Source: Clostridia bacterium (GTDB lineage Bacteria; Bacillota; Clostridia; Christensenellales; Borkfalkiaceae). From it: DNA of 56,713 nucleotides. Shown in pieces: positions 31,085 through 35,651 of the stretch (the first letter of the stretch is position 1; each line of letters starts with the position of its first letter). The notes beneath the pieces were generated by a model. That model ran no database searches, was not told where the DNA came from, and worked only from the letters and a program-made list of their open reading frames with translations. The stretch spans positions 1 to 56,713 of the forward strand of contig JAGHJS010000025.1 of assembly GCA_017886545.1 (NCBI GenBank), read 5' to 3'. The position numbers were made by a program, and so were the translations under genes.

Positions 31085-31113
31085 TTGACAACGCGCGGGC
31101 AAAAGGGTATACT
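31085..31113 (+). promoter_or_regulatory. Promoter of tyrA
   Basis: Consensus -35 TTGACA (31085-31090), a 17-bp spacer and -10 TATACT (31108-31113); one of the strongest promoters in the window. Confidence 0.88.
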
Positions 31114-31181
31114 TGAACGGAAATTTCCGTGCGGACAGGCGTGCGCACGGCAGAAAGACGGGAAGAACGGAGGATACGGAG

Positions 31182-32006
31182 ATGGAGATCGCGGTTGCGG
31201 GGTTGGGACTGATCGGCGGTTCGGCGGCAAAGGCGCTCGCGCGCGCAGGGTATGCGTGCGACGGGTACGACCTGCCGGAGGTCGTGCGGCGCGCCGTCGG
31301 GGAGGGCGTCGTGCGTGCCCGTGCGGAGAGTTTCGAGGCGTACGACGTGGTCCTGATCGCGCTTCCGCCCGATGCGGCGATGCGCCTGCTCGATACGGGC
31401 GCCTTCAGGCAGGGCGCGGTCGTCGCCGACTTCTGCGGCGTGAAAGGGGCGTTGGAGGCGTGCGTTTGCGCCGCGCCGCGCGCATACCGATACGTCGGCT
31501 GCCACCCCATGGCGGGGCGCGAAGTGTCCGGGCTGGAAAATTCGCTTGCGACCCTCTTCGACGGCGCAAGCATGATCGTCTGCGAAAACGAGAAGACGGA
31601 CGCCGACGCGGTGCGCCTTCTGGAAAAACTGTTCGCGGATATGGGGTTTGTGAACATGCCGCACTGTTCGGCGGCATATCATGACCGTAAGATCGCGTAT
31701 ACGTCGCAGCTGGCGCACATCGTGTCCAACGCGTATGTCAAAAGTGCGGCGGCGGACGGGTTTTCGGGGTTCACGGGCGGCAGCTTTCAGGACATGACGC
31801 GGATCGCGGGCGTGGATGAAACGATCTGGTCGCGCCTGTACATGCTGAACCGCGCCGCGGCGGAGGAAGAGCTTTCCGTGCTCATCGGGCACCTGCAGGC
31901 GTATCTTGCCGCGCTGCGGGAAGGGGACGAGGCGGCGCTGACCGCCCTTCTGAAGGAGGGCAGGCTGCGCAAAGAACATCTTGATCGCGAACGCAGGATC
32001 GTATGA
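31182..32006 (+). CDS. tyrA: Prephenate dehydrogenase
   Basis: This 274-residue enzyme oxidatively decarboxylates prephenate to 4-hydroxyphenylpyruvate on the way to tyrosine. The N-terminal Rossmann motif is G-L-G-L-I-G-G-S (about 7-14). The active-site region is H-P-M-A-G-R-E (His near 110), followed by G-L-E-N-S. The helical C-terminal dimerisation domain has Q-D-M-T-R-I-A. There is no chorismate mutase or ACT domain, so it is the short monofunctional form. I chose the ATG at 31182 (CGGAGGATA upstream); an earlier in-frame ATG overlaps the -10 element. It is monocistronic and stands about 5.7 kb before the aro operon. Confidence 0.92.
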   Translation: MEIAVAGLGLIGGSAAKALARAGYACDGYDLPEVVRRAVGEGVVRARAESFEAYDVVLIALPPDAAMRLLDTGAFRQGAVVADFCGVKGALEACVCAAPRAYRYVGCHPMAGREVSGLENSLATLFDGASMIVCENEKTDADAVRLLEKLFADMGFVNMPHCSAAYHDRKIAYTSQLAHIVSNAYVKSAAADGFSGFTGGSFQDMTRIAGVDETIWSRLYMLNRAAAEEELSVLIGHLQAYLAALREGDEAALTALLKEGRLRKEHLDRERRIV

Positions 32007-32154: not shown

Positions 32155-32183
32155 TTTACAAAATTCGCGTTTTGTGGTATACT
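32155..32183 (+). promoter_or_regulatory. Promoter of the DUF1934 / Rho-like / ROK / patatin operon
   Basis: -35 TTTACA (32155-32160), a 17-bp spacer and -10 TATACT (32178-32183) lie 33 bases before the ATG at 32217. Confidence 0.82.
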
Positions 32184-32216
32184 GTACGTCGGAAGACAGA
32201 TTTTGCGGGAGTTCCG

Positions 32217-32645
32217 ATGCGGGAAGAAGAGTGGATCCTTACAACCGAAGACGAGAGCGGCGTCCGCCGCGTGCGCGCGCACGAATATGCACGCGACGGC
32301 GGCATATGCCGTTTCACGGCGGGCGGCGCGTCCTATACCGTGGAAAGGGGAGCCGTTCTGCGCGTCGAGTGCGAAGGGGAACTTTCCTATGCGCTGGAAT
32401 TCGACCTGCTGCGGGCAACGGCGGCGGAACTTGCCACGCCCTACGGCAGCCTGCCCGTGGAGGTCCGTACGCACGCGCTTTCCTTTGCGGAGGAAGGCGG
32501 GTTCGAGGCGGAATATACGCTGTACTTCGGCGGGGAACCTTCCCGCAGAAAGATCGCTTATGCGCCTGCGCGGGCAGGCGGCAGACATAAAAAACGGAAC
32601 GAGAGCGCGCCTGCGGAGGCGGGCGCGGATAAGGAGGGAATATGA
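32217..32645 (+). CDS. DUF1934 (YwiB-like) beta-barrel protein
   Basis: This 142-residue protein carries the DUF1934 hallmark T-P-Y-G-S-L-P-V (about 80-87), preceded by alternating beta strands and followed by E-A-E-Y-T-L-Y. The family is a small calycin-like barrel of unknown function common in Bacillota. The ~25-residue C-terminal extension is basic and Ala-rich. ATG 32217 is set by the GGGAG site. It is the first gene of a chain linked by 4-base overlaps. Confidence 0.82.
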   Translation: MREEEWILTTEDESGVRRVRAHEYARDGGICRFTAGGASYTVERGAVLRVECEGELSYALEFDLLRATAAELATPYGSLPVEVRTHALSFAEEGGFEAEYTLYFGGEPSRRKIAYAPARAGGRHKKRNESAPAEAGADKEGI

Positions 32646-33274
32646 CGGTCGAATATCTCGGGCATTCTTCGTTTCTGCTGACGGCGGCGGACGGCACGCG
32701 CCTCGTGACCGATCCGTATGCGGGGATCGGCTATCCCATGCCGCATGCCGAGGCGGAGTATGTGGTTTGCAGCCACGGGCACGCCGATCACGCGAACGTG
32801 CGCGGCGTAGCGGGGGCAAAGGAAGTTTTGACCGAGTCGGGCAGGCATACGCTCGGCGCGTTCACGGTGACGGGCATTCCTGCCTGGCACGACGAGGTGC
32901 ATGGCGCAAAGCGCGGCAGGAGCATCGTATATCGTATCGAGGCGGACGGGCAGTGCGTGTGCCATATGGGCGACATCGGGCAGCCGCCCGAGAGCGGGCT
33001 GCTTGCGCAGATCGGTTCGCCCGACGTGCTGCTCGTTCCCGTCGGCGGGGTCTATACCGTCGACGACGCGGGCGCGGCGGAATACGTCCGCCTGATCCGT
33101 CCGAAGATCACGGTCCCCATGCACTATCATCTTCCGGGCGGGACGCTCGGGATCGCGCCGCCCGACGCGTTTTTAAAGCGCATGGGCGCGGAAAACTGCG
33201 TCCGGATGCGGAAGCTGTCCCTTCCCTGTCCCGAAGCGGAGGGGAAGACGGTCGTCCTGGAGGTGAAGAGATGA
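32642..33274 (+). CDS. Metallo-beta-lactamase-fold hydrolase (UlaG/YtkL-like)
   Basis: This 210-residue protein has the metal-binding motif H-G-H-A-D-H (about 45-50), a further His in the W-H-D region (about 82), Asp in M-G-D-I-G (about 111) and a late M-H-Y-H. These match the UPF0173/UlaG-type MBL hydrolases. Substrate is unknown; such proteins often act on phosphoesters or lactones. Overlaps its neighbours by ATGA on both sides, so the four genes from 32217 are translationally linked. Confidence 0.88.
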   Translation: MTVEYLGHSSFLLTAADGTRLVTDPYAGIGYPMPHAEAEYVVCSHGHADHANVRGVAGAKEVLTESGRHTLGAFTVTGIPAWHDEVHGAKRGRSIVYRIEADGQCVCHMGDIGQPPESGLLAQIGSPDVLLVPVGGVYTVDDAGAAEYVRLIRPKITVPMHYHLPGGTLGIAPPDAFLKRMGAENCVRMRKLSLPCPEAEGKTVVLEVKR

Positions 33275-34704
33275 CGGATGAAGAATTGCTCGGGCTGTAC
33301 AAGCCCGTCTACGACTATCTTGACGCGTTCGGCATCTTTGAAGTGCGCAATCTGGCGCGCGCGTTCGGCGTGAAGAAGCCTACGTACGGGCGGAAGCACG
33401 ATCTGATCATGCGCCTCATCGGCGTGGCGTGCGGCGACGTGCCCGCAGGGCTGCGGGCGAAGAAGGGCGCGCGCGTTAAGGCGGAGGACGCGCCGGAAGA
33501 GAGCGTTGCGCGGGTGCGCGAACTGGTCGCCGAATGCAACGCGAAACGCAATTACGATTTCAGCGAATCGCCCGTTCCGCAGTATTATTTCCGCGATTCC
33601 GGGAAAGAGGCGCGGCAGTTCGGGTACGGCGATACGCTCTTCCGCGGCGTGCTCGAACCGGGCGACGGCGGAGGATACCTGCGCGCGGAAAACTGCGAGG
33701 CGGGGGAGGACGATCCGGTCGTTCCCGAAAACATGATCAAAAAATTCGGGCTGCGCGTGGGCGACGCGCTCACGGGGTATGCCGAACGCATCGAAGGGGT
33801 GCACATGTTTGTGCAGCTTGAAACGGTGAACGGCGCGGCGAAGAGCAAACTGCAGCGCCCCGCCTTCGGGTCGGTCCCGGCGGTGTATCCGAGCGAACGG
33901 ATCTCCTTCGGCGCGGCGGCGGATCCCGCTCTGCGCGCCGTCGACCTTCTCTGCCCGATCGGCAAAGGGCAGCGCGTGCTGGTGCATGTCCCGTCGGGCG
34001 CGGACGGTTCCGCCTTTTTCAGGGCGGCTGCTGCCGCGGCGGAAGGGATGGAGGTGTGTTACATCGCCGTCGGCTGCGGTCCGGAGGAGGAGACGGACCT
34101 GCGCGAGCGTTTCCCGCAGGCACAGGTCGTCTGTTCGCCCTTCGGAAAACCCGCGTCGCATTGCGTGCGCGTGGTGCGCCTTGCTCTGGAACATGCCAAA
34201 CGGGCAGCGGAGAGCGGCGGCGACGTGCTCGTGCTGCTCGATTCCATGACGGCTCTTGCCCGCTCGTACGGCGGGGTGCTTCCCTCTTCGGGGCGGCGCG
34301 CGGCGGGCGGTACGGATCTGAACGTGCTTGCCGAATGCGAGGCTGTCTTTGCCGTCGCGCGGAAACTGCGGGGCGCGGGCTCCGTCACCATGCTTGCGGC
34401 AGTCGCGTCGGGCGGCGTGGCGGACGAGGACGTGGAGGGCAAGTGCGGGCCTGCTGCGAACGCGCACCTTTGGCTGGCGTCTTCGCCGCTGCGGGCGGGC
34501 GGCGCCGTGCCCGATTTTTCCCGTTCGTATACCCGCAGGGGAGACGAGCTGCTCGGCGAAAAGGAGCGGGCCTGCGCCGGGGCGCTGCGCGCGGCGGCCG
34601 CGTCGGGCGGCGCGGAAAACATTCTTCGCCTGCTGGCGGAAACGGAAAACAACGCGCAGTTTGTTGCGGAAGAAGAACTTTGGAAGAACGGAGGCAGGGA
34701 ATGA
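33271..34704 (+). CDS. Rho transcription-termination-factor homologue with degenerate ATP-binding loop
   Basis: This 477-residue protein aligns along its length with Rho. A helical N-terminal domain with K-H-D-L-I is at about 42-47. The RNA-binding OB-like domain (about 115-190) shows G-x-L-E-P...G-Y-L-R, P-x-N-M-I-K-K-F-G-L-R-x-G-D. The ATPase core begins with Y-P-S-E-R-I and P-I-G-K-G-Q-R (230-235). The Walker A P-P-K-A-G-K-T of normal Rho is P-S-G-A-D-G-S here (241-247), so the catalytic Lys and Thr are lost. Walker B is still recognisable as D-V-L-V-L-L-D-S-M-T (318-327). The arginine-rich S-R-K segment is replaced near 402-409. It probably cannot hydrolyse ATP in the Rho manner; an RNA-binding regulatory role is inference. 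The ATG overlaps the preceding stop by 4 bases with GGAGGTG upstream. Confidence 0.85.
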   Translation: MTDEELLGLYKPVYDYLDAFGIFEVRNLARAFGVKKPTYGRKHDLIMRLIGVACGDVPAGLRAKKGARVKAEDAPEESVARVRELVAECNAKRNYDFSESPVPQYYFRDSGKEARQFGYGDTLFRGVLEPGDGGGYLRAENCEAGEDDPVVPENMIKKFGLRVGDALTGYAERIEGVHMFVQLETVNGAAKSKLQRPAFGSVPAVYPSERISFGAAADPALRAVDLLCPIGKGQRVLVHVPSGADGSAFFRAAAAAAEGMEVCYIAVGCGPEEETDLRERFPQAQVVCSPFGKPASHCVRVVRLALEHAKRAAESGGDVLVLLDSMTALARSYGGVLPSSGRRAAGGTDLNVLAECEAVFAVARKLRGAGSVTMLAAVASGGVADEDVEGKCGPAANAHLWLASSPLRAGGAVPDFSRSYTRRGDELLGEKERACAGALRAAAASGGAENILRLLAETENNAQFVAEEELWKNGGRE

Positions 34705-35651
34705 GCTGTTTTGCGGGCATCGATTTCGGCGGCATGAGCGTGAAAGTCGGGCTGTTCGACGGGCAGGCGCGGCTGCTTTGCAAGCATACGGCGGCAACGT
34801 CGAAGGAGGACGGCTACGCCGAAACGGTGAAAAAGACGGTGCAGGCGGTGCGCGACGCGTGCGCGAAGGCGCAGGTCTCGCCCGTCGCGCTCCGCGCGGC
34901 GGGCGTCGGTACGCCCGGCGTGATCGACGGGGCGAAGGGCGTCGTCGTGCGCTGGAGCAATTACGGCTGGGAGGACAGGCCTTTTGCCGCCGACCTTGCG
35001 GCGGGGCTGGGCGTGCCCGTGGAACTTGCCAACGACGCGAACGCCGCGGCGCTGGGCGAGGCGCGTTTCGGCGCGGGCAAAAAATACAACAGCAGCATCC
35101 TGCTCACGCTGGGCACGGGCATCGGCAGCGGCATCATCCTGGACGGCGAGATCTTCGGCGGGTTTGGCGGCGGAGGCGGCGAAGCGGGGCATATGGTCAT
35201 CGAATCGGGCGGCATTCCCTGCCCGTGCGGGCGGCGCGGCTGCTTCGAACAGTACGCCTCCGCGACGGCGCTCGTCCGCGATACCAAGCGCGCCATGTTC
35301 GAACATAAAAATTCGGCGCTGTGGCGCATCGCGGGCTCGCCCGAAGGGGCGGACGGCAGAACGGCGTTCCTCGCCGCGCGCGAGGGCGACGCCGCCGCGC
35401 GCAAAGTCGTGGATTCCTTCATCCGCTACCTTGCGGACGGCATAGCGAACCTGGTCAACCTGTTCCGCCCCGAAGCGGTGCTCCTCGGCGGCGGGATCTC
35501 GAACGAGGGCGAGGCGCTGCTCGCGCCCCTGCGGCAGCGCGTGGGCGAACGCCTGTACGTGGACGCGGCGCGCATCCCGTTCGCACTCATCCGCGCGGCG
35601 CTCGGCAACGACGCGGGCATGTACGGCGCATATGCGCTGGTATGCGGCTGA
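34701..35651 (+). CDS. ROK-family sugar kinase (glucokinase-like)
   Basis: This 316-residue kinase has the N-terminal phosphate motif D-F-G-G-M-S-V-K (about 8-15). The ROK signature region is L-T-L-G-T-G-I-G-S-G (about 136-145), and the zinc site follows as G-H-M...C-P-C-G-R-R-G-C-F-E (about 165-183). No N-terminal helix-turn-helix is present, so it is an enzyme rather than a ROK repressor. Glucose phosphorylation to glucose-6-phosphate is most likely. The final G in the first phosphate motif is Met, a small deviation. ATG overlaps the Rho-like stop by 4 bases. Confidence 0.9.
   Translation: MSCFAGIDFGGMSVKVGLFDGQARLLCKHTAATSKEDGYAETVKKTVQAVRDACAKAQVSPVALRAAGVGTPGVIDGAKGVVVRWSNYGWEDRPFAADLAAGLGVPVELANDANAAALGEARFGAGKKYNSSILLTLGTGIGSGIILDGEIFGGFGGGGGEAGHMVIESGGIPCPCGRRGCFEQYASATALVRDTKRAMFEHKNSALWRIAGSPEGADGRTAFLAAREGDAAARKVVDSFIRYLADGIANLVNLFRPEAVLLGGGISNEGEALLAPLRQRVGERLYVDAARIPFALIRAALGNDAGMYGAYALVCG

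Follow-up and report, generated by a model that had tools for sequence, protein, structure and literature searches.

A Rho without a working motor appears, from sequence and phylogeny, to have arisen about a dozen times within one bacterial family, each time by change of the rho orthologue itself and with the gene retained. The case described here lies in a window of 56,713 nucleotides (the whole stretch of DNA that was analysed) from a Borkfalkia-like gut bacterium of the Clostridia. Among its named relatives are Candidatus Borkfalkia faecigallinarum and B. faecavium, which NCBI places in the order Christensenellales. Wherever the locus could be checked, the motor seems to have been lost at the usual place of rho. 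The original prediction for this gene had been a catalytically dead Rho paralogue with an intact RNA-binding region, which might assemble with a true Rho into mixed hexamers. The dead motor is strongly supported by sequence, and the observations on the P-loop and on the overlaps with neighbouring genes stand; the paralogue, the mixed hexamers and the intact RNA-binding region do not, and the observations on the arginine finger, the OB segment and the gene context need revision.

Motor Residues of the Window Protein

The predicted open reading frame is real, and residues 125–467 of its 477-aa product align with a Rho of solved structure (phmmer, best E 5.8e-42). Pfam matches cover residues 125–189 (Rho_RNA_bind) and 221–379 (ATP-synt_ab), the Rho RNA-binding OB domain PF07497 scoring 40.9 bits and thus passing its cut-off of 27. 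With the Rho model TIGR00767 the protein reaches 166.3 bits, below the curated cut-off of 509.45; canonical Rhos of the same genus, at 457–500, also fall slightly below this value. Both the tree and the locus establish the protein as Rho by orthologous descent. The gene and the segments that bear on the motor are as follows.

33271–34704, + strand: motorless rho orthologue, 477 aa (open reading frame; Rho profile, phmmer and Pfam matches)
33952–33975, + strand: CPIGKGQR, residues 228–235
33991–34011, + strand: destroyed P-loop, PSGADGS, residues 241–247
34069–34098, + strand: VGCGPEEETD, residues 267–276, site of the catalytic Glu of DERPEE, Glu replaced by Cys
34225–34245, + strand: Walker B, VLVLLDS, residues 319–325, Asp kept
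34285–34311, + strand: Q-loop equivalent, SSGRRAAGG, residues 339–347, glycines kept
34402–34434, + strand: R-loop region, about residues 378–388, basic residue lost
34519–34554, + strand: SRSYTRRGDELL, residues 417–428, finger Arg kept, valve Arg upstream lost

The translation confirms that PSGADGS occupies the place of the P-loop, so that no Walker A GK[T/S] is present. The catalytic Glu is also lost, because the DERPEE segment reads GCGPEE, and the columns of the catalytic Glu, the valve Arg and the R-loop basic residue hold Cys, Ser and Val, respectively. Walker B is retained as predicted, with LLDS at residues 322–325 and its Asp present, and so is the Q-loop, which most motor-defective Rhos have lost. 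The predicted change in the arginine-finger region was correct for the region but not for the finger: the finger Arg is kept (SGTRKEE reads SYTRRGDE here), and it is the preceding 'valve' Arg of LSRxxAE that is gone. The combined loss of P-loop, catalytic Glu, valve Arg and R-loop basic residue strongly supports, at the level of sequence, the designation of this protein as a catalytically dead Rho, in which residues for both ATP hydrolysis and RNA translocation are missing.

Two Classes of Rho and a Single rho Locus

The search for Rho covered 40 genomes from the genus and 151 from the family, with 18 genomes common to both sets. The Rho scores split into two classes, and the 156 usable Rhos extracted comprised 78 canonical proteins (78 genomes) and 78 motor-defective proteins (77 genomes), scoring more than 500 bits and 98–417 bits, respectively, against a model of canonical family members. 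Among loci L001–L162, L002 and L003 (ATP-synthase-like) and L054 (canonical, with a stop splitting the frame) were unused, and the truncated L051, L070 and L141 were excluded from trees and counts; family Rho matches left outside the extracted set include those of G075, G093, G097 and G148 and the second piece of that in G103.

The two classes differ at each motor position, canonical versus motor-defective: Walker A Lys (78/78 versus 44/78), Walker B Asp (78/78 versus 61/78), catalytic Glu (78/78 versus 7/78), R-loop basic residue (78/78 versus 3/78), valve Arg (74/78 versus 12/78) and finger Arg (78/78 versus 15/78). Canonical Rhos hold six or seven of seven core residues, motor-defective Rhos from none to six (one with six, two with five). 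Which parts are lost varies. The window protein and its nearest kin lack the P-loop and have the Q-loop, whereas other motor-defective Rhos have GKT and have lost the Q-loop, the R-loop and the catalytic Glu. The position of this Glu is taken by Gln in 29 of the 78, across four genera, and a P-loop-like GK[S/T] is retained in 39, so some motor-defective Rhos may bind nucleotide. The GQR motif is kept in nearly all of them (Q in 73/78, R in 76/78). The window protein is not a lone mutant among homologues that all carry G-K-T, since its three nearest relatives (64–70% identity) share the loss of the P-loop and motor defects recur across the family.

In the window genome (2.06 Mb in 91 contigs, 85% complete) a single rho locus was found, in the canonical position. 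A search of this 85% complete assembly with the Rho model for a second rho, canonical or otherwise, gave none, the two other matches being weak and ATP-synthase-like. No genome in the extracted set holds both a canonical and a motor-defective Rho. A hand count puts 46 of the 77 motor-defective genomes at 90% completeness or more; that a second rho escaped detection in every one is therefore not credible. These results do not fit a paralogue, and they leave mixed hexamers without a known partner. One genome, G005, has two differing motor-defective rho genes (L023 and L069), perhaps through contamination (4%).

Some family members may lack rho altogether: in G049, G050 and G074 (90–97% complete) the search for Rho gave solely weak, ATP-synthase-like matches. 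In G026, G031 and G038 rho was not found either, and the hydrolase that adjoins it was also missing from all three; the hydrolase search matched all four rho-bearing congeners used as a control. We did not conclude a true absence of rho in these three genomes, as the joint loss is what an assembly gap would give.

The neighbours of rho in the window are as follows.

31113–32006, + strand: prephenate dehydrogenase, upstream neighbour, also present in many relatives
32172–32645, + strand: DUF1934 protein, upstream neighbour (slightly below the Pfam cut-off)
32642–33274, + strand: metallo-beta-lactamase-fold hydrolase (Lactamase_B_3), constant neighbour of rho in the genus
34701–35651, + strand: ROK family kinase, downstream neighbour, 4-base overlap

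The predicted 4-base overlaps (ATGA) are present at 32642–32645, 33271–33274 and 34701–34704. The setting had been thought unusual for rho, but it is the usual one in the genus, for canonical Rho included. Within the short flanks covered by the counts, the hydrolase adjoins rho at 10/10 canonical and 27/27 motor-defective loci of the genus; the corresponding figures are 10/10 and 24/27 for the ROK kinase, 9/10 and 15/27 for prephenate dehydrogenase, and 4/10 and 22/27 for DUF1934. Because both classes share these neighbours, the neighbourhood is a trait of the rho locus in the genus rather than of a paralogue. Across the family, where it adjoins rho in many genera, the hydrolase was found at 52/78 canonical and 75/78 motor-defective rho loci.

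Evidence for Repeated Origin

A careful Rho tree and an approximately unbiased (AU) test were based on 58 of the 156 sequences, 29 of them motor-defective. In this tree genera g1, g8, g13, g4 and g10 each have their motor-defective Rhos together with their canonical ones, the motor-defective Rhos of g3 and g5 adjoin g10, and L099 stands apart from the remaining motor-defective Rhos of g8. Only the motor-defective Rhos of g2, g16 and g9 gather across genera, weakly, and this grouping may reflect long-branch attraction. Forcing the 29 motor-defective sequences into one clade lowered the log-likelihood by 193 and was rejected by the AU test (p 1.4e-47), although long branches should favour a single motor-defective clade. 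A single ancient paralogue followed by differential loss was ruled out by the Rho tree and the AU test.

We also placed the two states on a species tree (FastTree) made from 26 ribosomal-operon proteins of 80 genomes, 79 of them with known Rho state, over 3956 columns. With midpoint rooting this tree requires 12 irreversible losses, a number unchanged when branches under 80 are collapsed, and Fitch parsimony gives 11 changes. Proteins from the window genus share as little as 35% identity with the window protein, which indicates that the motor-defective state is old.

Selection on the N-Terminal, OB and ATPase Domains

The regions outside the motor in the window protein are as follows.

33310–33486, + strand: SAP/Rho_N-like N-terminal domain and basic GARVKA linker, about residues 14–72
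33631–33840, + strand: OB fold, about residues 121–190, RNA pocket partly lost

The RNA-binding region, described originally as intact, is altered at two of five pocket positions in the window protein: three are kept, and the equivalents of Phe62 and Tyr80 are Gly and Val. The description fails for most motor-defective Rhos as well, since only 5/78 have all five pocket residues, compared to 73/78 canonical Rhos, and 21/78 have none. The most constrained part of motorless Rho is instead the N-terminal domain, on which the original prediction was silent. Its type appears from sequence to be Rho_N/SAP; Pfam gives a weak match in the window protein (Fan1_SAP, E 0.05) and a Rho_N match in the canonical orthologue L010 (E 8.7e-5). 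Of the positions near-invariant in canonical Rho, motor-defective Rhos keep 4/4 in the N-terminal domain and 16/79 in the ATPase domain. Mean identity in the window genus, among canonical versus among motor-defective proteins, is 0.60 versus 0.56 for the N-terminal domain, 0.70 versus 0.36 for the OB fold and 0.86 versus 0.44 for the second half of the ATPase domain.

Small Rho_N proteins free of a motor occur in at least two genomes of the genus, further short frames also being listed. Genome G018 encodes a stand-alone 69-aa Rho_N protein (L186:9956-10162) alongside the full-length motor-defective Rho L022. Genome G038, in which a full-length Rho was not found, encodes a 137-aa Rho_N protein without an ATPase (L196:1408-1821); it carries part of a Rho-like linker, as judged by eye, and the usual hydrolase does not adjoin it.

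The 78 motor-defective frames, which were chosen as open, span 406–505 aa, and an internal stop was flagged in only one listed motor-defective match of the genus and family searches (G126). Over 20 close motor-defective pairs dN/dS was 0.09–0.33, with dS above 1 in ten. Values were also pooled over nine pairs per class, hand-picked from 325 pairs. The motor-defective pool gave 0.22 overall, 0.13 for the N-terminal domain, 0.22 for the OB fold and 0.24 for the ATPase domain (95% bootstrap 0.21–0.27); the canonical pool gave 0.11, 0.18, 0.08 and 0.07, respectively. Selection on the OB and ATPase domains is thus relaxed about threefold, yet the dead ATPase domain is far from neutral, and constraint on the N-terminal domain is undiminished relative to canonical Rho. 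A pseudogene was rejected, as the frames are open and dN/dS lies well away from 1.

Occurrence Elsewhere in the Order and Phylum

For the order and phylum samples E-values were read by eye, and sequences were read for seven motorless-looking Rho-like proteins found elsewhere in the order: L187–L189 (family f4), L190 and L198 (f28), and L297 and L298 (f32). All seven lack a working P-loop. The OB segment of L187–L189 is near normal, and L297 and L298 are the most degraded of these proteins. A match to the N-terminal domain survives in the very degraded L198, L297 and L298. Among 21 genomes sampled from f28, nine gave no Rho match and ten more gave weak matches only. The notion that f28 and f32 had simply dropped rho proved wrong in part, since two genomes of each carry very degraded motorless Rho-like proteins.

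By hand count, 73 of the family's 77 motor-defective genomes fall in the E-value band from 1e-22 to 1e-100. In a phylum sample of 398 genomes only the window genome had its best E-value within this band, and eight genomes fell between 1e-100 and 1e-160. A search of 80 genomes with the Rho OB model matched 5/7 genomes known to have a motorless Rho, and so misses some; it matched 2/5 genomes of f32 and 1/68 genomes of other orders (G807, 21 bits, below the cut-off). The match in G807 (G807:C3:170514-170651) lies in an 800-aa frame. Because both searches were nearly empty elsewhere, the motorless state looks concentrated in the order of the window genome, with sensitivity limited for very degraded cases.

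Possible Function of a Motorless Rho

We infer that a repeatedly evolved motorless Rho probably persists for a role that does not depend on the ATPase, namely nucleic-acid binding, and that has its centre in the N-terminal domain. The SAP-like N-terminal domain and the basic linker would bind nucleic acid passively, on a scaffold formed by the OB fold and the dead ATPase fold; the target of the protein could be nascent RNA or the transcription machinery. A passive binder is favoured by the Rho_N/SAP type of the domain, the basic linker and the stand-alone Rho_N proteins of the genus. Cells with such a protein would then be without motor-driven Rho termination, and the function of the N-terminal domain would be older than the loss of the motor. 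Repeated retention of this domain suggests that the ancestral Rho of the lineage already had an ATPase-independent function there. More tentatively, and with some doubt on our part, Rho may have an ancient ATPase-independent function in its N-terminal domain, one that was kept on each of a dozen or more occasions when Borkfalkia's family and some related ones discarded the motor.

Published work makes it unlikely that the window protein terminates transcription in the classical way. For E. coli Rho, RNA release is tracked by how fast ATP is hydrolysed, and the pocket mutant Y80C hardly binds the primary-site ligand (PMC1950744). Bacilli without Rho have a weaker purine bias in coding sequence (PMC13323073), and a similar weakening would be expected here if termination were lost. 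In small samples of ribosomal and rho-neighbour genes we found no consistent difference between the classes. For ribosomal genes, motor-defective versus canonical, the bias was 0.550 versus 0.563 in g1 and 0.566 versus 0.566 in g8, other genera being mixed; for rho-neighbour genes it was 0.546 versus 0.548 and 0.542 versus 0.532. This result counts against the step in which termination is lost. Purine bias in this family may not be set by Rho, the losses may be too recent or the samples too small, or the protein may still act.

Slow decay is an unlikely but live rival. Under it there is little dependence on Rho, and the gene erodes domain by domain and will vanish, the constraint being residual or serving to avoid misfolding. 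It draws on OB and ATPase dN/dS values about three times canonical, on the 21/78 motor-defective Rhos that keep no OB pocket residue, on f28, where 9/21 genomes gave no match and ten more only weak ones, and on G049, G050 and G074, which may be without rho. These points must be set against frames open throughout the 78 (though chosen as such) with one flagged stop, dN/dS of at most 0.33 in 20 close pairs, of which half have diverged to a dS above 1, an N-terminal domain as tightly constrained as that of canonical Rho, and an old state, with identity within the genus falling to 35%. It is quite improbable that motorless Rho is a non-hydrolysing switch, a ring that sits on RNA polymerase or on nascent RNA and brings about pausing or anti-termination instead of termination, with about half of the proteins perhaps nucleotide-bound. 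The GK[S/T] P-loop of 39/78, the Gln at the catalytic Glu of 29/78 in four genera and the retained fold-core motifs GQR, PE and GS-T would suit such a switch, as would contacts between Rho and the polymerase in published structures, made on the side of the Rho NTD in E. coli and by the CTD in Thermus (PMC9908020); the window protein, however, lacks a P-loop entirely.

A paralogue or decoy in mixed hexamers with a true Rho, the idea put forward originally, is scarcely credible: homology to Rho is what speaks for it, but no second rho was found in its own genome (85% complete), no canonical-score match was listed for any of the 77 motor-defective genomes (46 of them at least 90% complete by hand count), and the locus is that of canonical rho. 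Hydrolysis of ATP at the altered loop by an unusual mechanism is highly improbable as well, since the P-loop Lys, catalytic Glu, valve Arg and R-loop basic residue are gone together, even though the Walker B Asp, the Q-loop glycines and the finger Arg are present in the window protein.

A passive nucleic-acid binder would run against the view of Rho as a motor, by which there is no function without the ATPase; one family suggests the opposite many times over. Normal and motorless Rho occupy one locus in sister species of a single genus, so a role of Rho beyond ATP-driven termination becomes testable. In these genomes the annotation 'Rho' may raise a false expectation of Rho-dependent termination and of sensitivity to inhibitors of Rho.

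Comparison with Known Systems

A search of the literature for motorless, degenerate or pseudo-Rho listed no such protein, subscription journals being mostly outside its coverage; a phyletic survey of Rho was reportedly made by D'Heygere and colleagues. The Bacilli without Rho (PMC13323073) resemble the present lineages in that both are presumed to be without working Rho termination. There the gene is absent and purine bias is weaker, whereas here the gene stays and our small samples show no drop. The likeness to canonical Rho (TIGR00767; PF07497 with an ATP-synt_ab fold) extends to the orthologous locus, the OB fold, the RecA-type ATPase, the length and the N-terminal domain; the difference lies in the P-loop, catalytic Glu, valve Arg, R-loop basic residue and part of the OB pocket, all missing from the window protein. 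The alpha subunit of F1-ATPase is a non-catalytic ring subunit of the same fold, with a GQR motif. It acts beside catalytic beta subunits, whereas for motorless Rho no catalytic Rho partner was found. Stand-alone Rho_N proteins such as plant RHON1 use the Rho N-terminal domain without the Rho motor, and proteins of this kind occur in the window genus too (L186 and L196). The window protein differs from them in retaining the whole Rho architecture, and it is a variant of Rho rather than a new kind of system.
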